IMG/VR virus record: IMGVR_UViG_3300032307_000516
Coordinates: 1-64,000 of that record
Source of the DNA: a virus
Strand: one strand, 5' to 3'
Length of the DNA stretch: 64,000 nucleotides
Shown here one piece after another: positions 5,721 to 24,621 of this stretch. Numbering within the stretch: the stretch's first letter is position 1; each line of letters begins with the position of its first letter. The notes below the pieces were generated by a model. It had not been told where the DNA came from. It searched no databases and saw only the letters and a list, made by a program, of their open reading frames with translations. Both the position numbers and the translations under genes were made by a program.

Positions 5721-7367
5721 ATGTCAAGACTAGGCGAATTTGCTGACAAAAAAACAGCAATGCAAATTTTACAAAACTCCACTTACGGAGCACTAGGAGT
5801 AGAGAACTTCATGGGAGGGATATCTTACAGCTTATCACCTCTAAACACATTAAAGATTGTTGCTGCTTCTTCAATCTTTGGAGAACCACAATATTATAGA
5901 GATGGATTAGGTGCTCCTAGTAACCTTAGCACTATCTTGGACTATTCTATATTAGCTCCGATGTTCAAAGCAGAATCTGGAGCTTTAAAAGATAATCTGA
6001 GTGCTGTAGATATCTTCGAAGAAGCCATACAGGCAGCTTTAGACTTCGACTTTAAAGCAACATTGGATTTAGCTTTAGAACTCCGTAACGAGTACTATAT
6101 GCGTCTAAATCCAGCTGTAATATTTGTTAAAGCAAGTATGCACGAAGGTCGTCAGGAGTTCAACGAGAAAAATCCTGGGTACATGAAGATGATAGGTAAA
6201 GCTATTGCTCTTAGACCTGATGATTTAACAAATCAGTTCGAATACTATATGTATAAGAACGGAGGTAAAAAAGGTCTTTCATCTTTGGTGAAAAGAACTT
6301 GGGCAGAAAGACTTGCAGAATTCTCGCGTTACCAATTGAACAAATACAAGGGTAAAAGATTAATCGACCTTGTTCGTATCTCTCACGCTAAAAGTGAAGA
6401 TATTAATGAGCTAATGACAACTGGTACATTAAAAGTAGAAGAGTCAGAAAAAACATGGGAGATCTTAAGATCAGAAAAAAAATCATGGGAAGAGATTGTA
6501 AACACTATCTCAATCCCACATATGGCTCTTTTGAGAAACCTTAGAGGTATTTTTACTGAAGTCGAAGATCCTACACTTACTGCAAGAATTTTAACTCAGT
6601 TAAAAGGCGGTGTTATAAAAGGAAAACAATTCCCTTTTAGATATTGGTCAGCTTATAAAGCTGTATCCAATTCACAGATCCACCACAAACAACTTGTTTT
6701 GGATACTCTTGAAGAATGTTTAGACATCTCTGTAGAGAATATGCCTAAATTAAAAGGTAAAACGGTTTGTCTTTCTGATAACTCAGGATCTGCATGGGGT
6801 GCTTTCAATAGCGAATATGGATCAGTTACTGTAGCAGAGATTGCTAACTTGTCTTCATTAATTACATCACTACAATCTGATTCAGGAGAAGTTGGTGTAT
6901 TTGGGGATGATCTTTCATTGAAAGGAGTATCTAAAAGAAATGGCCTTCTTACACAATTAGAAGAAACTTCTAAAAGAGGTAGAGCTCAAGGAGGTGGTAC
7001 AGAAAATGGAATTTGGGTATTCTTTGATGAAGCCATCAAAAATAAAGTCCATTACGACAACATCTTTATCTATTCAGATATGCAAGCAGGTCACGGTAAT
7101 CTTTATGGACACGGACACACAGTAGGTAAAACTAAATTTGTCCACCCAAGAAAAGGCGGAACATACGTAGACGTACTTGCTATGGCTCAGGAATACAGAG
7201 ATAAAGTTAATCCTAAGGTTAATTTATTTACAGTTCAAGTAGGAGGTTACAACAACAGTGTTCTTCCTGAGGCTCTTTACAGAGGAGCAATATTAGCTGG
7301 TTGGACTGGTAAAGAACCTGTATTTGCTAAAGCAATTATAGACATTTGGGATTCAGTAGAAGCCTAA
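5721..7367 (+). CDS. rsr: Ro60/TROVE-family RNA-binding protein
   Basis: 548 residues, the length of bacterial Ro60 orthologues. The N-terminal ~330 residues form the helical TROVE repeat region; the C-terminal part is a von Willebrand A domain with an intact MIDAS motif D353-N-S355-G-S357. Ro60 proteins are ring-shaped, bind Y RNAs on the outer surface and misfolded or fragmented RNAs through the central hole, and in bacteria tether the exonuclease PNPase or assist rRNA/tRNA turnover. The gene directly follows three structured RNA elements and a terminator, the arrangement expected for Ro60 with Y RNAs. In a phage with a large tRNA set, a role in tRNA quality control or as an RNA decoy holder is plausible inference. 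Confidence 0.92.
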   Translation: MSRLGEFADKKTAMQILQNSTYGALGVENFMGGISYSLSPLNTLKIVAASSIFGEPQYYRDGLGAPSNLSTILDYSILAPMFKAESGALKDNLSAVDIFEEAIQAALDFDFKATLDLALELRNEYYMRLNPAVIFVKASMHEGRQEFNEKNPGYMKMIGKAIALRPDDLTNQFEYYMYKNGGKKGLSSLVKRTWAERLAEFSRYQLNKYKGKRLIDLVRISHAKSEDINELMTTGTLKVEESEKTWEILRSEKKSWEEIVNTISIPHMALLRNLRGIFTEVEDPTLTARILTQLKGGVIKGKQFPFRYWSAYKAVSNSQIHHKQLVLDTLEECLDISVENMPKLKGKTVCLSDNSGSAWGAFNSEYGSVTVAEIANLSSLITSLQSDSGEVGVFGDDLSLKGVSKRNGLLTQLEETSKRGRAQGGGTENGIWVFFDEAIKNKVHYDNIFIYSDMQAGHGNLYGHGHTVGKTKFVHPRKGGTYVDVLAMAQEYRDKVNPKVNLFTVQVGGYNNSVLPEALYRGAILAGWTGKEPVFAKAIIDIWDSVEA

Positions 7368-8262: not shown

Positions 8263-8544
8263 ATGTCAATCAGAGTCTATTCAGGATACGATGAATTTAA
8301 GTTCGAGGAAGAAGAAATCTGCGAATATTTAGAATCCGATTTCTCAGATTCAAACGATGATGATGAATCAGATGATGTATTTTTTTATACTGAATCTAAA
8401 ATAGATTTTAGAGACGATGCTGATTTTTATATAATCTGTGATACAGAGGACGAGGAGACAGCAGAGGATATAGCTTCTTATTTAGGTAAGGCTAAAAAAA
8501 TAAATTTAGAAGATTTTAGGAAATCATTTTTTTATATAAGATAA
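8263..8544 (+). CDS. Acidic hypothetical protein
   Basis: 93 residues, about one third Asp/Glu, with alternating acidic and aromatic segments; starts 2 bp after the preceding stop, so it is probably co-translated with it. DNA-mimic proteins have such a composition, but nothing specific supports that here. Confidence 0.55.
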   Translation: MSIRVYSGYDEFKFEEEEICEYLESDFSDSNDDDESDDVFFYTESKIDFRDDADFYIICDTEDEETAEDIASYLGKAKKINLEDFRKSFFYIR

Positions 8545-8558
8545 AATATCTATATTTG
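8525..8558 (+). promoter_or_regulatory. Promoter A of tRNA operon A (CATTTTTTTA-N16-TATATTTG)
   Basis: CATTTTTTTA (8525-8534), exactly 16 nt, then TATATTTG (8551-8558). The same two boxes with the same 16-nt spacing occur at 11137, 13065 and 24299. It overlaps the end of the upstream gene. Confidence 0.7.
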
Positions 8559-8594
8559 TGAAACAAAACAACAAATAAGATATATAAAGTTTAA

Positions 8595-8654
8595 ATGAAA
8601 ACAATACTTAACATATTACCTTCAATATTAAGACCGTCGATAAGACGATCCTAA
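8595..8654 (+). CDS. Leader peptide A (19 aa) of tRNA operon A
   Basis: The ORF encodes MKTILNILPSILRPSIRRS. Fifteen of 19 residues are Ile, Leu, Arg, Ser or Pro, exactly the amino acids carried by the tRNAs that follow (Ser, Arg, Pro, Ile, Leu, plus Met). The codons match at isoacceptor level: all four Ile codons are ATA (tRNA-Ile TAT), two of three Leu are TTA (tRNA-Leu TAA), two of three Arg are AGA (tRNA-Arg TCT), all Ser are TCN (tRNA-Ser TGA). The stop codon abuts an AAAGGTCC segment that pairs with the terminator arm. I infer a ribosome-stalling leader of an attenuator. Confidence 0.75.
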   Translation: MKTILNILPSILRPSIRRS

Positions 8655-8719
8655 AGGTCCTGTGTTAATAAAAAATAATCATTAACTAAACCGGGACCTT
8701 TAAAAGTCTCGGTTTTTTT
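8653..8719 (+). terminator. Attenuator A: antiterminator/terminator
   Basis: Segment 1 AAAGGTCC (8653-8660, at the leader stop) can pair with segment 2 GGACCTTT (8694-8701). Segment 2 is also part of the terminator stem AACCGGGAC (8689-8697) / GTCTCGGTT (8706-8714), followed by T8713-8719. The two pairings exclude each other. A small GTTAAT/ATTAAC hairpin (8664-8686) lies between. Confidence 0.8.
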
Positions 8720-8720
8720 A

Positions 8721-8733
8721 TGTTCTTTGACAT
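8721..8733 (+). promoter_or_regulatory. boxA-like element of tRNA operon A
   Basis: TGTTCTTTGACAT, near-consensus boxA, 17 nt before the first tRNA. Confidence 0.65.
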
Positions 8734-8749
8734 GTTGGATTATCAAATT

Positions 8750-8836
8750 GGAGAGGTGGCAGAGCCTGGTTTATTGCACCGGTCTTGAAAACCGACGTAG
8801 TGAAAGCTACCGGGGGTTCGAATCCCTCCCTCTCCG
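8750..8836 (+). tRNA. tRNA-Ser(TGA)
   Basis: Class II tRNA; acceptor GGAGAGG/CCTCTCC, anticodon loop CTTGAAA, long variable arm, discriminator G. First gene of operon A. Confidence 0.95.
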
Positions 8837-9300: not shown

Positions 9301-9374
9301 GGTCCCTTAGCTCAGTAGGTTAGAGCAACTGACTCATAATCAGTAGGTCCACGGTTCGAGCCCGTGAGGGACCA
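9301..9374 (+). tRNA. tRNA-Met(CAT), elongator type
   Basis: Acceptor GGTCCCT/AGGGACC, anticodon stem ACTGA/TCAGT with loop CTCATAA. Lacks the three G-C anticodon-stem pairs of initiators. A CAT tRNA could also be an Ile-lysidine tRNA; sequence alone does not decide. Confidence 0.9.
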
Positions 9375-9465
9375 CAAAGATACGGATGAGATTTCTAAAT
9401 CTCCTACTTACTTATGAAAAGAAGGATTCCGTAACTAATACCATATAGTAGTGATGGTATTGTCT
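9375..9465 (+). ncRNA. Possible structured RNA between tRNA-Met and tRNA-Leu
   Basis: TACGGA/TCCGTA closes a region with a GAGATTT/AAATCTC hairpin, and a second hairpin AATACCAT/ATGGTATT follows. The inter-tRNA spacer is otherwise free of coding signs. Confidence 0.35.
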
Positions 9466-10167: not shown

Positions 10168-10944
10168 ATGCCAACAACAAGAGCATTTGCATATAATCCA
10201 GCACAAGCAACAATTTCTGGAACTACAAATATAGGTACATTATGTGTAGGTGTATCTGCTTTAAATTACGGAGGAAATCCTGGTGGATTAACTTGGTGGA
10301 TGGGTCCGGACGAGGATAATTCTTATGTTATAGCTAAGGATGTGCCAACAGCAGACTTCCCTACTCCAGTAGGTAATGTTGGTAATGTACAATTTTGGAG
10401 ATGTTCTAACAACAGCTCAGAATTCACTAATCTTGTTACATTAATAAGTGGTACTACACAAGCATCTGCTTCTGCTGCTCAATCGTGGCTATCAACAAAT
10501 AATTATTGGACTAATTACACTAGCGGAGTAACTTTCTCACAACCTTTTGTAAATGGTACTGCACCAACAAATGCAGTAGAAACTGCTTGGAATACATTTA
10601 GAGCATCTTTAACAGGTTCTTATACACAATTTGTTGTATCTAATTCATTAGGGTTTAGTTTAACAGTAAGTCATGCTACTTCAGTACAGACTTTGGCAAA
10701 TGCACTAAGAAATGCAACAAATAATACCTCGGTAACTATAAACAGCGTAGTTTGGAGAGTAGGAACAGGATGTGGAACTCCTAAAATAGGTGGGGTTGCT
10801 GTTGAATTTTCCAACGTAGCAAGCTGTAGTTCATCAAGTACTATAGCATTTAGACCTATGATTAATAACTTAAACTGGGGAGGTATGGGTACAGGATCTA
10901 CTGTAGGACAGGCTTCACAAACAATGACACTAACATTTAGCTAA
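10168..10944 (+). CDS. Probable virion structural protein
   Basis: 258 residues, rich in Ser, Thr, Asn and Gly with few charged residues, like fibre or capsid-decoration proteins. It has no recognised domain. It overlaps the next small gene by one base (TAATG). It sits with the DUF1566-like gene as a small insertion between two tRNA groups. Confidence 0.5.
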   Translation: MPTTRAFAYNPAQATISGTTNIGTLCVGVSALNYGGNPGGLTWWMGPDEDNSYVIAKDVPTADFPTPVGNVGNVQFWRCSNNSSEFTNLVTLISGTTQASASAAQSWLSTNNYWTNYTSGVTFSQPFVNGTAPTNAVETAWNTFRASLTGSYTQFVVSNSLGFSLTVSHATSVQTLANALRNATNNTSVTINSVVWRVGTGCGTPKIGGVAVEFSNVASCSSSSTIAFRPMINNLNWGGMGTGSTVGQASQTMTLTFS

Positions 10945-11096
10945 TGGAAACTTATAGAATAATAGACTTAAGAGTAACCCCAAATGAAATAGTACCAGGT
11001 AAGGAATCTGTTACTTTAGAAGAGGGACAATTATGGATAGACGAGAACGGAGGAGATTGTCCATTGTGCGACTATACGCTATTAATCAATGAATAA
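10944..11096 (+). CDS. Small 50-aa protein with a CPLC motif
   Basis: ATG overlaps the preceding stop codon. Residues near 40-43 are Cys-Pro-Leu-Cys. Acidic, no other feature. Translationally coupled to the upstream structural gene. Confidence 0.5.
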   Translation: METYRIIDLRVTPNEIVPGKESVTLEEGQLWIDENGGDCPLCDYTLLINE

Positions 11097-11136
11097 ATGT
11101 AGATTTTTTAAAATAATTTGAAAAAAATACAAAAAA

Positions 11137-11170
11137 CATTTTTTTAAACGGGAACTTTTCCGTACTTTTG
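11137..11170 (+). promoter_or_regulatory. Promoter B of tRNA operon B (CATTTTTTTA-N16-TACTTTTG)
   Basis: CATTTTTTTA (11137-11146), 16 nt, TACTTTTG (11163-11170). Same architecture as promoters A and C. Confidence 0.7.
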
Positions 11171-11202
11171 GAGTATATAATAAAAAAGGAACAAAACTTT
11201 CA

Positions 11203-11292
11203 ATGAAACACTTTTTAAATATCGAAATGGATCTTCAGCTTCTAAAAGGAGACGAACGTCTTGAGGATACAAATAAGTGTCAGAGGAAATAA
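11203..11292 (+). CDS. Leader peptide B (29 aa) of tRNA operon B
   Basis: The ORF has 3 Asp, 3 Glu, 5 Leu (four of them CTN) and 2 Met in 29 codons, with the core EMDLQLLKGDERLED. The tRNAs directly downstream are Glu(TTC), Asp(GTC), fMet and Leu(TAG), the last reading CTN. The final codons contain TCAGAGG, the first strand of an antiterminator. I infer a stalling leader. Confidence 0.7.
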   Translation: MKHFLNIEMDLQLLKGDERLEDTNKCQRK

Positions 11293-11342
11293 ATTTATAT
11301 AAAGATATAATTTAAACCTCTGATAACCTCAGAGGTTTTTTT
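11280..11342 (+). terminator. Attenuator B: antiterminator/terminator
   Basis: Segment 1 TCAGAGG (11280-11286, inside the leader ORF) and segment 3 TCAGAGG (11329-11335) are identical; both pair with segment 2 CCTCTGA (11317-11323). 2:3 forms a terminator AAACCTCTGA / TCAGAGGTTT with a T tract; 1:2 prevents it. Confidence 0.8.
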
Positions 11343-11350
11343 GTTTTATA

Positions 11351-11363
11351 CGCTCTTTGAAAT
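11351..11363 (+). promoter_or_regulatory. boxA-like element of tRNA operon B
   Basis: CGCTCTTTGAAAT, 3 nt before the first tRNA of operon B. Confidence 0.6.
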
Positions 11364-11366
11364 TAT

Positions 11367-11438
11367 GGTCCCTTCGTCTATCGGTTAGGACGTTAGGTTT
11401 TCATCCTAGAAAGAGGGGTTCGATTCCCCTAGGGACTA
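11367..11438 (+). tRNA. tRNA-Glu(TTC)
   Basis: Acceptor GGTCCCT/AGGGACT, anticodon loop TTTTCAT; followed by an encoded CCA (11439-11441). Confidence 0.93.
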
Positions 11439-11446
11439 CCAGAAAA

Positions 11447-11520
11447 GGTCCTACAGTCCAGTTGGAGTGGACGCCGCCCTGTCACGGCGGAGATCGCGGG
11501 TTCGAGTCCCGCTAGGACCG
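11447..11520 (+). tRNA. tRNA-Asp(GTC)
   Basis: Acceptor GGTCCTA/TAGGACC, anticodon stem CCGCC/GGCGG with loop CTGTCAC, discriminator G as usual for Asp. Confidence 0.95.
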
Positions 11521-11522
11521 CT

Positions 11523-11606
11523 AAAACTTATGCTACATAGAGCAAAGCAGAAAGGTACGATCTGGTACACTATGAAGTACAAATAGAAAGTCAGATCATA
11601 AGTTTT
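11523..11606 (+). ncRNA. Structured inter-tRNA RNA
   Basis: AAAACTTATG and CATAAGTTTT form a 10-bp closing stem. Internal complementarities are ATCTG/CAGAT and CATAG/CTATG, the latter possibly a pseudoknot. No tRNA features. It lies between tRNA-Asp and tRNA-fMet. Confidence 0.45.
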
Positions 11607-11618
11607 AAAAAATTATAT

Positions 11619-11691
<73 letters not shown>

Positions 11692-11905
11692 CTAATAAGT
11701 TATTTGAAATATTTGCGAAAAGTTCGATGGAATCAATTATAGGTCCAGGGCACAAATCCGTGTGAGGAATCCAATTGATAGAAGAACCTTCTACTGAGTA
11801 ATGCACGTACACGTGATATCCATAGAAAAGTCCTAATAAGTTAAAGGCAAAGGAGTTGATAATACCGGTTAAAAACAACTTTATCTCTTTAGATAGCAAA
11901 TAAAT
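11692..11905 (+). other. 214-nt spacer in operon B
   Basis: No supported ORF. ATCAATT/AATTGAT (around 11730-11785) encloses a GCACA/TGTG hairpin, so structured RNA is possible. No match to the GAAGCGG element. Confidence 0.3.
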
Positions 11906-11985
11906 GCCCTCGTGGTGGAATTGGTAGACACGCTAGACTTAGGATCTAGTGCGAAAGCGTGAGAGTTCGAGTCTCTCCGAGGGTA
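11906..11985 (+). tRNA. tRNA-Leu(TAG)
   Basis: Class II; acceptor GCCCTCG/CGAGGGT, anticodon stem CTAGA/TCTAG with loop CTTAGGA. Reads CTN, the Leu codons favoured in leader B. Confidence 0.95.
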
Positions 11986-11987
11986 CT

Positions 11988-12485
11988 ATGAAAGTTATAT
12001 TTTTAGATTTTGATGGTGTTCTTAATCTTATACCTCAAGGACATGACTATTACGGAGGGATTTTTCACCCTGAATTTGTCGGCAACCTAGGTAGGATTAT
12101 AGAGGAAACTGGAGCAAAACTTGTGATAAGCTCTTCGTGGAGAACTATGGGATTGGAAAGACTTAGAATGATGTGGGAACATCGTTTATATCCAGGAGAC
12201 ATCATAGGAGTTACCCCAGATCTTAGATGGAGGACAAAAAAAGATGCTATGGAATTAAACGAAGTCGAGTACGTTAGAGGAGATGAAATAGAGTCATGGC
12301 TAAATCTACATCCGGAGGTAACTAATTATGTTATACTTGACGATGATGATGATATGTTACAATCACAAAGAATAAACTTTGTAAGAACATCTGATAATAT
12401 TAATCATCCTGATTGCATTGATATAGGATACGGATTAACTAATATTTGTTCTAACGATGCAATTAGAATTTTAAACAGAAAATAA
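11988..12485 (+). CDS. HAD-family phosphatase 1 (RNA-repair type)
   Basis: 165 residues. The start is at 11988; a longer frame from 11949 would overlap tRNA-Leu. Motif I D7-F-D9-G-V, motif II ISSSW near residue 50 and an acidic DDDDD patch near residue 120 define a compact HAD. The pattern (DFDGVLN ... SSSWR) fits the HAD domain of Swiss-army-knife RNA repair proteins. It starts 2 bp after a tRNA and is followed by a paralogue; by analogy with the T4 Pnkp phosphatase domain I infer 3'-phosphate removal during tRNA repair. Confidence 0.75.
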   Translation: MKVIFLDFDGVLNLIPQGHDYYGGIFHPEFVGNLGRIIEETGAKLVISSSWRTMGLERLRMMWEHRLYPGDIIGVTPDLRWRTKKDAMELNEVEYVRGDEIESWLNLHPEVTNYVILDDDDDMLQSQRINFVRTSDNINHPDCIDIGYGLTNICSNDAIRILNRK

Positions 12486-13054
12486 TGAAAGTTATATTTT
12501 TAGATCATGATGGAGTAATTTGTCTTTCCCAGCAATTTGGTGGGCGTTACAAAAAGCAGACTAAAGCTAGAACTAAGCTTTCTCAAAACGTGATGGATTT
12601 TCCAGTCGATGCTAGATTTGATAACTTCGATAAGAAAGCTATTAAAGTTCTAAACCTAATCTTAGAAGATACTGGAGCTGAAATAGTTGTTTCTTCTGAT
12701 TGGAAGAACTGGGCAAATGTTGAAGAAATGGGCGAATATTACGAACAACAAGGTATAATTAAAAAGCCTATTGATTTTACACCTAGAGAATACACAATGC
12801 CAGAGAAACAAGAATGGCATCCAGACTGGGATTTAGAAGCATCAAGAACTTTAGAAATCCAAGAATGGCTAAAAGATCATCCAGAGGTTACTCATTGGGT
12901 AGCAATAGATGATTTAGATATGAGCTTTAAAGAGGTATCAAATAATAGAAGCGGTACTGGCTGGGGCTTAAAAAACTTTGTACACACCCCAAGTATCACT
13001 GAAGGGATTAAAAAAATGGGTATAAAAGAAAAAGTTTTAAAATTTTTAAAATAA
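12485..13054 (+). CDS. HAD-family phosphatase 2 (RNA-repair type)
   Basis: 189 residues; ATG overlaps the stop of HAD 1 by one base. Motif I D7-H-D9-G-V, SSDW near residue 76, acidic DDLD near 141. It has the same overall plan as HAD 1 but diverged, and a longer insertion after motif I. Tandem, translationally coupled paralogues suggest a heteromeric or substrate-split activity. Confidence 0.75.
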   Translation: MKVIFLDHDGVICLSQQFGGRYKKQTKARTKLSQNVMDFPVDARFDNFDKKAIKVLNLILEDTGAEIVVSSDWKNWANVEEMGEYYEQQGIIKKPIDFTPREYTMPEKQEWHPDWDLEASRTLEIQEWLKDHPEVTHWVAIDDLDMSFKEVSNNRSGTGWGLKNFVHTPSITEGIKKMGIKEKVLKFLK

Positions 13055-13064
13055 TTTCAAAAAA

Positions 13065-13098
13065 CATTTTTTTATTTAAAAAATATATTGTACTTTTA
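13065..13098 (+). promoter_or_regulatory. Promoter C of tRNA operon C (CATTTTTTTA-N16-TACTTTTA)
   Basis: CATTTTTTTA (13065-13074), 16 nt, TACTTTTA (13091-13098). A GGATATATAA box (13118-13127) precedes the leader. Confidence 0.7.
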
Positions 13099-13137
13099 CG
13101 AAACTATTCTGGAAACAGGATATATAATTAAGAAAAA

Positions 13138-13245
13138 ATGAAAAACTGTAGTAAACATAACATCAATCGCATGAACAGTCAAATTAATGGCTGCTATCAA
13201 ACGGTGGCGTTTTGGGCTAAGGGGAAAGAACCCGATCGAAGCTAA
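13138..13245 (+). CDS. Leader peptide C (35 aa, 19 different amino acids) of tRNA operon C
   Basis: The ORF contains every amino acid except Leu in only 35 codons, with Asn x5, Lys x4, Ser x3. The downstream tRNAs represent 16 isotypes (Phe, Lys, Trp, Arg, Cys, Ser, Ile, Val, Asn, Tyr, Gly, Ala, Met, His, Thr, Gln) and all 16 occur in the peptide. Isoacceptor choice also agrees: Ser is only AGT/AGC (tRNA-Ser GCT), Ile only ATC/ATT (tRNA-Ile GAT), Arg only CGN (tRNA-Arg ACG). The last three codons GAT CGA AGC are the antiterminator strand. I infer a broad sensor of charged tRNA. Confidence 0.8.
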   Translation: MKNCSKHNINRMNSQINGCYQTVAFWAKGKEPDRS

Positions 13246-13304
13246 TACAGAAAATCATAATTAGATATTTTGGAAAAGGCTTCGATTTAATCGAAGCCTT
13301 TTTT
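13235..13304 (+). terminator. Attenuator C: antiterminator/terminator
   Basis: Segment 1 ATCGAAGC (13235-13242, end of leader C) is identical to segment 3 in the terminator. Segment 2 GCTTCGAT (13279-13286) pairs with either. 2:3 is AGGCTTCGAT, loop TTA, ATCGAAGCCT and a T tract, a strong terminator. Confidence 0.88.
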
Positions 13305-13307
13305 ATT

Positions 13308-13320
13308 TGTTCTTTGACAT
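13308..13320 (+). promoter_or_regulatory. boxA-like element of tRNA operon C
   Basis: TGTTCTTTGACAT, identical to the operon A copy; 12 nt before tRNA-Phe. Confidence 0.65.
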
Positions 13321-13332
13321 ACTGGAAAAAAT

Positions 13333-13405
13333 GGTACCGTAGCTCAGTTGGTAGAGCACTAGACTGAAAATCTAGGTGTCGCCGGTTCGATTCCGGCCGG
13401 TACCA
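13333..13405 (+). tRNA. tRNA-Phe(GAA)
   Basis: Acceptor GGTACCG/CGGTACC, anticodon stem CTAGA/TCTAG with loop CTGAAAA. Confidence 0.95.
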
Positions 13406-13476
13406 CAATACTAAACAAGAAATTGTCTCACTAAACTAATCATGTTTAGTATTACAAAAACAAGTTTAGTAACAAT

Positions 13477-13550
13477 GATCTCGTAGCTCAGTTGGCTAGA
13501 GCACCTCACTTTTAATGAGGGAGTCGAGGGTTCGAGCCCCTCCGGGATCA
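13477..13550 (+). tRNA. tRNA-Lys(TTT)
   Basis: Acceptor GATCTCG/CGGGATC, anticodon stem CCTCA/TGAGG with loop CTTTTAA. A conventional Lys tRNA, separate from the permuted copy at 14462-14556. Confidence 0.95.
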
Positions 13551-13556
13551 CTACAC

Positions 13557-13629
13557 ACGTCAGTAGCTCAATTGGTAGAGCGTTGGTCTCCAAAACCAAA
13601 GGTCGTAGGTTCGATTCCTACCTGGCGTG
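13557..13629 (+). tRNA. tRNA-Trp(CCA)
   Basis: Acceptor ACGTCAG/CTGGCGT, anticodon stem TTGGT/ACCAA with loop CTCCAAA, discriminator G. Confidence 0.94.
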
Positions 13630-13635
13630 CTAAAA

Positions 13636-13708
13636 GGCTCTGTAGTTCAAGGGATTAGAATGGATCACTACGGATGATCTGATCCTGGTTCGAATCCAGG
13701 TGGAGTCT
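13636..13708 (+). tRNA. tRNA-Arg(ACG)
   Basis: Acceptor GGCTCTG/TGGAGTC (three wobble pairs), anticodon stem GATCA/TGATC with loop CTACGGA. A34 would need deamination to inosine to read all CGN. Confidence 0.85.
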
Positions 13709-13719
13709 CAAACAAATAA

Positions 13720-13791
13720 GGTCGTGTGGTCGAGTGGTTTAGGCACTAGTCTGCAAAACTAGTTATACTGGTTCAATTCCAGTCACGGCCT
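13720..13791 (+). tRNA. tRNA-Cys(GCA)
   Basis: Acceptor GGTCGTG/CACGGCC, anticodon stem ACTAGT/ACTAGT with loop CTGCAAA, discriminator T typical of Cys. Confidence 0.94.
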
Positions 13792-13808
13792 CAAAAAATG
13801 TAAGAAGT

Positions 13809-13934
13809 ATGAAAATAGTTATTGAAGGAAAAATGAAATCGTCGAATCACAGATTAAATGCGATTCCAGTTAAAATTGAAAGAAAAAATTCTCTAATCAA
13901 AAGAATCAAAAGATTGATTAATAAAGGAAAGTAA
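13809..13934 (+). CDS. Small basic protein (41 aa) whose end overlaps tRNA-Ser
   Basis: The ORF encodes a Lys/Arg-rich peptide starting MKIVIEGKMK and ending INKGK. Its last codons GGAAAGTAA double as the 5' acceptor strand of tRNA-Ser(GCT). Possible small RNA-binding protein; unknown family. Confidence 0.45.
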   Translation: MKIVIEGKMKSSNHRLNAIPVKIERKNSLIKRIKRLINKGK

Positions 13935-14011
13935 TCTCAGATGGTGACGGGGCTCGCCTGCTAAGCGAAGCGTACCTTAATTGGTATTTGGTTCGATTCC
14001 AATTCTTTCCG
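13926..14011 (+). tRNA. tRNA-Ser(GCT)
   Basis: Class II; acceptor GGAAAG/CTTTCC (seventh pair T x T), loop CTGCTAA, variable arm GTACC/GGTAT, discriminator G. Its first 9 bases overlap the end of the small ORF. Reads AGT/AGC, the only Ser codons in leader C. Confidence 0.85.
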
Positions 14012-14017
14012 CAACAT

Positions 14018-14091
14018 TGACATATAGCTCAGTTGGTTAGAGCGTTGATCTGATACGTCAAAGGTCGAAGGTTCGAATCCTTCTATGTCAA
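14018..14091 (+). tRNA. tRNA-Ile(GAT)
   Basis: Acceptor TGACATA/TATGTCA, anticodon stem TTGAT/GTCAA with loop CTGATAC; reads ATC/ATT. Confidence 0.94.
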
Positions 14092-14127
14092 CTTAAAAAT
14101 TATAAAAATGAAAAAAGAATTTGACAA

Positions 14128-24298: not shown

Positions 24299-24332
24299 CA
24301 TTTTTTTATAAACAAAATAATAGTTACATTTA
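24299..24332 (+). promoter_or_regulatory. Promoter CATTTTTTTA-N16-TACATTTA
   Basis: Fourth instance of the promoter that drives the three tRNA attenuators; 16-nt spacing kept. Drives 24352. Confidence 0.65.
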
Positions 24333-24351: not shown

Positions 24352-24621
24352 ATGGACATGGATAACATAAAAAAACTCCAAGATTTAGAAGATCAAATCG
24401 ATGAACTCTATGATGAACAATCGAGAAAACTCTATAATTATATAGAGACGATGGGTGAAAAAGCTTTCGAAGAAGGAAGCCCTTTATATAAATTTAGAGA
24501 CTCAGATCTTTTTGAGAGATTGATTAATCATTTTGAACAATTGGAGGAATACGAGAAGTGTGCATTTTTAGTAAAGGCATCTTGGAATATTAAAAGATCT
24601 ATAATAGAGAGCCTTCTCTAA
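24352..24621 (+). CDS. Hypothetical acidic helical protein
   Basis: 89 residues, predicted mostly alpha-helical (MDMDNIKKLQDLEDQIDELY). No family recognised. Its promoter is the early-type CATTTTTTTA class shared with the tRNA operons. Confidence 0.55.
   Translation: MDMDNIKKLQDLEDQIDELYDEQSRKLYNYIETMGEKAFEEGSPLYKFRDSDLFERLINHFEQLEEYEKCAFLVKASWNIKRSIIESLL

Follow-up and report, generated by a model that had tools for sequence, protein, structure and literature searches.

The window analyzed here is a stretch of 64,000 nucleotides (positions 1 to 64,000) of the 72,049-base IMG/VR virus record IMGVR_UViG_3300032307_000516, and it carries 26 tRNA genes between positions 8750 and 16541. In this study, we investigated the region in front of one of its tRNA operons (leader B, preceding operon B) and conclude, with a probability of about 0.85, that leader B is a ribosome-mediated transcription attenuator controlling this phage tRNA operon. 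The conclusion is based on the anatomy of the leader, its conservation, the covariation of its pairing strands, and the matching of leader codons to operon tRNAs over many families, from which we infer that the open reading frame (ORF) in the leader is translated, that ribosomes stall on it, that the RNA switches between folds, that regulation runs in the direction proposed below, and that the switch is used during infection. Chance fails to explain the unit, given the sister leaders A and C in the same window, the copy of a terminator strand at the end of the ORF together with the terminator itself, and the conservation in relatives. Leader B likely belongs to a widespread and undescribed class of phage regulators in which the leader peptide is an inventory of the operon's tRNAs and tRNA supply is autoregulated during infection; about 20 dissimilar families with a boxA-like site are found among the matches listed, along with others that do not have the site.

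Anatomy and predicted folding of leader B

The leader comprises a promoter, a 29-codon ORF, an intrinsic terminator, and a boxA-like site in front of the first tRNA gene (Table 1). A sequence-only reading of the window had proposed that antiterminator and terminator strands are identical copies of TCAGAGG, and this was confirmed: the copy within the final codons of the ORF (strand 2) repeats the 3' arm of the terminator (strand 4), and CCTCTGA (strand 3) pairs with either one, so that a competing antiterminator can form. The leader B fold is more stable than its dinucleotide shuffles (z = -3.85; 0/200). In computed structures in which strand 2 is free, the antiterminator forms at -16.3 kcal/mol even with strand 4 present; once a ribosome occupies the stop codon, the terminator (-12.7 kcal/mol) is the one structure left. 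Partial pairing of strands 1 and 2 is also seen in the leader B folds of the window.

The same reading had described an Asp/Glu/Leu(CTN)-rich peptide before a short operon of tRNA-Glu, -Asp, -fMet, and -Leu(TAG). All four tRNAs were found, and 11 of the 29 codons are indeed Asp, Glu, or Leu. The CTN label needs one correction, as the first Leu codon is TTA; the other 10 of the 11 are Asp, Glu, or CTN-Leu, and they form the central cluster that had been claimed, at codons 8 to 22. Counted as in-set codons (those read by tRNAs of the leader's own operon), they make up 10 of 28 (binomial P = 0.012 against phage codon usage; P = 9.5e-4 without the last seven codons). The last in-set codon is GAT at 11266, and strand 2 begins 14 nucleotides past its first base.

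Table 1. Positions of the leader units and of the elements of leader B in the window
Feature	Position	Strand	Details
Leader A unit	8525-8737	+	promoter; ORF 8595-8654 (MKTILNILPSILRPSIRRS); strand 2 AAAGGTCC at 8653-8660; terminator 8688-8715; boxA 8722
Leader B promoter	11138-11170	+	ATTTTTTT box, then TAnnTTTG (TACTTTTG at 11163-11170)
Leader peptide ORF B, 29 codons	11203-11292	+	MKHFLNIEMDLQLLKGDERLEDTNKCQRK; putative sensing cluster at codons 8-22 (11224-11268)
Strand 2, TCAGAGG	11280-11286	+	antiterminator 5' strand within final ORF B codons; copy of terminator 3' arm; covariation
Strand 3, CCTCTGA	11317-11323	+	common to antiterminator and terminator; pairing, covariation
Intrinsic terminator and U tract	11314-11338	+	AAACCTCTGATAACCTCAGAGGTTT; strand 4 at 11329-11335; detected independently
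boxA-like site	11352-11366	+	GCTCTTTGAAATTAT; between terminator and first tRNA of operon B
tRNA operon B	11367-11986	+	Glu(ttc), Asp(gtc), fMet(cat), Leu(tag)
Leader C unit	13065-13325	+	promoter; ORF 13138-13245 (MKNCSKHNINRMNSQINGCYQTVAFWAKGKEPDRS); strand 2 GATCGAAGC at 13234-13242; terminator 13271-13305; boxA 13309

Sister leaders and their promoter

The remaining tRNA genes of the window stand behind leaders A and C. The tRNAs of operon A (Ser(tga), Arg(tct), Pro, Ile(tat), Met(cat), and Leu(taa)) read 13 of the 18 codons of leader A (P = 3.8e-6), and 0 of 14,341 segments of the phage's genes did as well. All four Ile codons of leader A are ATA, the codon of Ile(tat), and AGA and TTA are also used. 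The tRNA-Met(cat) gene of operon A lies at 9301-9375, and its acceptor stem (C4-G69, C5-G68) resembles that of an AUA-reading tRNA-Ile2; this candidate identity would fit the four ATA codons.

Leader C precedes an array of tRNAs running from Phe to Gln (13333-16541). Its codons 2 to 28 all fall within the set of this array (27/27; P = 3.3e-6) and between them represent each of the array's 16 amino acids (P = 3.5e-4 given the 27/27 match), a combination found in 0 of 13,945 gene segments. These codons leave out Leu, Pro, Asp, and Glu, which are amino acids of operons A and B. Where leader C does use Glu, Pro, and Asp, it does so in its last seven codons, and the footprint of a ribosome stalled there would already cover strand 2. 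Leaders A, B, and C partition the amino acids as their operons do. In the window, degenerate tRNA-like pieces and an inserted ORF with a weak DUF6734 match (14434-14680 and 14830-15765) interrupt array C, which is a single run in relatives such as L004, L005, L011, and L081.

Promoter spacing is identical at leaders A (8525/8551), B, and C (13065/13091; TACTTTTA), and the leader promoters are kept in relatives. The pattern CATTTTTT-N14-24-TAnnTTT has four matches on the + strand of the window, where a first-order Markov model predicts about 0.1; three of them are leaders A, B, and C, all with a 26-nucleotide offset. A looser pattern gave 19 matches versus 3.7 in shuffles. The fourth copy of the promoter (24299-24331, same spacing, TACATTT) precedes a protein gene (ATG near 24354, MDMDNIKKLQDLEDQ...) and no tRNA, and this gene may share regulation with the tRNA operons. 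A boxA-like element follows the terminators of leaders A and C as it does that of leader B, and the arrangement recurs in relatives.

Conservation and covariation in relatives

Adjoining the operons is a gene for a TROVE (Ro-like RNA-binding) protein (5721-7367), whose relative in Bacillus phage G is 53% identical, and through this protein we gathered 46 viral relatives. In most of relatives L003 to L014, and in L038, the tRNA operons keep both their order and their promoter-ORF-terminator-boxA units. The ORF, terminator, and switch strand of leader B are kept in at least 10 relatives; its frame survives insertions or deletions of 3 and 12 nucleotides, and the spacer past the stop codon has ones of 1 to 2 nucleotides. 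In L012 and L038, strands 2, 3, and 4 have changed from CAGAG/CTCTG/CAGAG to CCGAG/CTCGG/CCGAG, a joint change of the kind that mutually exclusive pairing demands. Covariation of the same three strands was found in two unrelated leader families (L116 versus L200 and L120 versus L161), and by eye an A-U pair in the inner hairpin of the leader B antiterminator is replaced by G-C in L006, a compensatory change.

The codons of leader A also evolve with its operon. At its in-set positions, 7 of 7 distinct nonsynonymous variants remain in the set when the divergent L013 is excluded (2.1 expected; P = 1.1e-4), as do 10 of 13 with L013 included (P = 8e-5). L013 and L014 have neither tRNA-Pro nor any Pro codon. 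Among leader A-like leaders, those of L116 and L200 carry codons for His and Thr, and that of L151 for Cys and Gln as well as His and Thr; their operons have the matching extra tRNAs. In L007 the ATG of leader A has become ATA and several operon A tRNAs are gone. The leader C variants (4/4 in the set versus 3.3 expected) are uninformative, and the sequence is highly conserved among close relatives. A fourth tRNA operon (Leu, Pro, Leu), present in L012 (15384-15429) and in L038 (near 17787), has a terminator and boxA and no matching leader ORF.

A wider class of phage leaders

We scanned viral contigs for a terminator U tract followed by boxA; the resulting operon and family counts are lower bounds, also because of the tRNA sets called by ARAGORN and of contig ends. 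One ORF per operon was chosen by a composition-blind rule, similar peptides were merged, and leaders were shuffled among operons. Families were merged on peptide similarity only, and some may share a distant ancestor. Among the matches listed, many unrelated viral tRNA operons have a terminator-boxA leader unit. In this set, the codon match of leaders to their own operon was 0.484 versus 0.290 in permutations (22 families; z = 7.6; 0 of 20,000 shuffles), a 21-family version gave a similar result, and z remained 6.4 without the leader types of the window (19 families). In a similar family set, the 3' ends of the ORFs paired with an arm of their own terminator with a score of 19.8 versus 13.1 when permuted (z = 10.1). 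Operons with a terminator but no boxA gave z = 6.7 for the codon match (16 families). The proposal in the sequence-only reading that leader codons match operon tRNAs thus gains its support from relatives, from leaders A and C, and from the 22 families; for leader B alone it is weak.

Two examples illustrate the match: the L198 leader MKNLFHTTTSSSTSTSSCDEDTRALLRDR precedes Ser, Ser, Thr, Cys, His, Thr, Ser, Glu, and Asp tRNAs, and the L034 leader MMNTMVKKCWHMFGFAGKTSGGAI precedes Ala, Phe, Lys, Met, Cys, Gly, Trp, and His tRNAs. Matching leaders without a boxA-like site occur in L034, L036 (MFTMNYDYNNNFSYENVTYDYGTEETT... before Asn, Tyr, Asp, Thr, Glu, and Gly tRNAs), L027, and L332, and perhaps belong to phages of other hosts. 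A search pattern derived from leader A also pulled in many contigs without a leader unit, which are probably chance matches. A boxA-like site similar to that of the window stands before 16S rRNA in a Bacteroidales contig (L289) and in a bacterial tRNA-tuf operon (L271). We considered a bacterial origin of the whole module and rejected it: among the 118 bacterial and archaeal terminator-boxA stretches listed, only L271 precedes tRNAs, without a leader, and L289 precedes 16S rRNA.

Genomic context and host

The window encodes a tail sheath protein, a terminase large subunit, and a UvsX-like recombinase. The nearest cultured relatives of the terminase (about 30% identity) include Sphingomonas phage PAU, Tenacibaculum phages PTm1 and pT24, and Flavobacterium phage MaF61. 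These relatives, together with the TAnnTTTG promoters, which we take to contain the Bacteroidota -7 box, point to a Bacteroidota host. Phages PAU and pT24 have tRNAs and yielded no leader by the composition-blind rule; PTm1 and MaF61 gave no tRNA match; in Bacillus phage G no terminator-leader unit was seen by eye before the tRNAs; and no convincing match to four leader peptides came from a tblastn search of cultured phages. Between tRNA-Leu(tag) and leader C lie two neighboring HAD_SAK_2 genes (11949-13054), which encode a HAD domain of RNA-repair proteins, and the phage also has a gene with an IMP dehydrogenase/GMP reductase domain (19062-20126).

Proposed mechanism

Our model follows the general scheme of ribosome-mediated attenuation (PMC1183508). 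RNA polymerase would start near 11177, and a ribosome would translate the ORF behind it. A shortage of Glu-, Asp-, or Leu(CUN)-tRNA would slow the ribosome in codons 8 to 22, leaving strand 2 free to pair with strand 3 and thereby block the terminator, so that polymerase could pass the boxA-like site and transcribe the tRNA genes. If reading is fast, the ribosome would reach the stop codon, the terminator would form, and transcription would end. Since stalling would give read-through and fast reading termination, the tRNAs would limit their own transcription in a negative feedback loop. Leaders A and C would act likewise on the remaining tRNA operons. By analogy with rRNA operons, the boxA-like site probably protects the untranslated tRNA transcript. 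Three components of an attenuator of this kind are seen in the leader: a short ORF, presumably translated and with a conserved frame, that precedes an intrinsic terminator; regulatory codons that correspond to the tRNAs of the operon, both class-wide and in leaders A and C, with leader B alone at the P value of 0.012; and an antiterminator that, according to the computed energies, would exclude the terminator and whose 5' strand would be covered by a ribosome at the stop codon.

Several findings weigh against this interpretation. Leader B is the weakest of the three leaders by codon content, and its composition, which is equaled by 3% of stretches of that length from genes of the phage (447 of 13,901), is therefore only mildly unusual and by itself unconvincing. 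An internal codon cannot sense the fMet tRNA of operon B. At the in-set positions of leader B, 2 of 9 variants remain in the set (1.5 expected; P = 0.46), which is not significant. The tRNA-Leu(tag) gene is in another operon in L012 and L038, yet leader B keeps its Leu codons there, and L013 retains Ser codons with no tRNA-Ser gene found. As for the structures, the stalled-ribosome fold of leader C favors the terminator once strand 4 exists, so that switching there would have to be kinetic, and by eye the protecting 1:2 hairpin of leader B is not kept in L006. Lastly, several families in the permutation set mismatch their own operon (e.g., L012 15429, L016, and L154 6911); several of the ORFs retained in that set are probably not leaders, and their inclusion dilutes the statistics rather than inflating them.

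Alternative explanations

Leader codons and operon tRNAs could match because both follow codons that are poorly read by the host, in which case the switch would detect an unsuitable or tRNA-depleted host and feedback would be secondary. We regard this as rather unlikely. The ATA, AGA, and TTA codons of leader A are in keeping with it, as is the proposal that phage tRNAs replace host tRNAs destroyed by defense nucleases (PMC10264068), but the amino acids present in a leader depend on the operon downstream, and leader C names 16 different ones. Host depletion and feedback would in any case be compatible, with depletion as the trigger and feedback as the off-switch.

We give little credence to the idea that the leaders are sensors of translation in general, responding to nascent-peptide arrest, antibiotics, or slow ribosomes and not to the tRNAs of their own operon. 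The structural outcome would be the same for a ribosome stalled anywhere ahead of strand 2, and the high conservation of leader C among close relatives is in keeping with the idea; however, codons follow the downstream tRNAs across families, leader A-like leaders exchange Ile, Leu, Ser, Thr, His, Cys, and Gln codons with operon content, and no common arrest motif was seen.

Even less probable is an arrangement in which the hairpin terminates the preceding genes (10168-11097), transcription of the tRNA operon begins at a later promoter of its own, and the ORF is there by chance. The mildly unusual composition of leader B agrees with such an arrangement, and the L271 tRNA-tuf operon is an example of one, with an upstream gene, a terminator, boxA, and tRNAs but no leader. 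In the window, however, a promoter shared with leaders A and C sits between the preceding gene and the ORF, and the ORF, its frame, and its copy of the terminator arm are conserved and covarying. We rejected this explanation on the shared promoter and the covariation, and the class-wide pairing with the own terminator and the codon-operon matching reported above also speak against it. A leader RNA that itself binds uncharged tRNA, in the manner of T-box riboswitches, would likewise link a tRNA signal to an intrinsic terminator but has a negligible chance of being correct, as the leader is an ORF that is conserved, as many as 16 tRNAs are served by a single leader, and the T-box family (RF00230) has no window match at the gathering threshold and is absent among the weak matches at 11100-11366.

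Significance and relation to known systems

The reason why phages carry tRNA genes has been an open question for more than 50 years (PMC10264068). A tRNA switch that measures its own product, as we propose for leader B, would imply that these phages treat tRNA shortage as a correctable variable. If true, inventory leaders would let phages answer the depletion of host tRNAs by defense nucleases, and each leader would be a readable record of which tRNAs matter, so that the question of why phages have tRNAs becomes testable. The leader unit would also provide a signature by which such operons could be recognized in the sequences of other phages.

Full-text literature searches, whose coverage leaves out most subscription papers, turned up no account of tRNA genes or phage tRNA operons being controlled by leader-peptide attenuation. 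A recent survey of phage tRNA genes is silent on attenuation, leader peptides, and promoters, and a survey of premature terminators and attenuators (PMC2965389) mentions neither tRNA genes nor phages. For want of a precedent, we judge the system to be a known switch logic with a new target and a multi-amino-acid sensor.

Among known systems, rRNA-operon antitermination shares a boxA-like sequence (GTTCTTTGA) immediately before stable RNA genes, but in leader B this site lies downstream of an attenuator and its function is presumed. T-box riboswitches also respond to tRNA status through a terminator/antiterminator switch; unlike them, leader B would work via a translated ORF and act on tRNA genes, and it has no T-box match. 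The hisS and hisZ leader peptides of Firmicutes are likewise outside amino acid biosynthesis and control a gene of tRNA charging, but their targets are of the aminoacyl-tRNA synthetase type and they concern one amino acid (PMC2965389). The amino acid operon attenuators (trp, his, leu, thr, ilv, and pheA) share with leader B a short ORF with regulatory codons, a strand at the ORF end that pairs with the terminator 5' arm, and expression expected when codons are read slowly. Unlike these attenuators, the phage leaders have tRNA genes rather than biosynthetic enzymes as their presumed targets, have a boxA-like site after the terminator, and carry codons for several to 16 amino acids that match the operon tRNAs, and leader B has no Rfam leader-family match at the gathering score; no regulatory or amino acid leader family of Rfam reaches it in the window, the best relevant one being Phe_leader at 21.7 bits against a cut-off of 55. 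With leader B and its sisters, the reach of ribosome-mediated attenuation would grow beyond amino acid synthesis to include tRNA genes, and a single peptide would cover as many as sixteen amino acids instead of one or a few.
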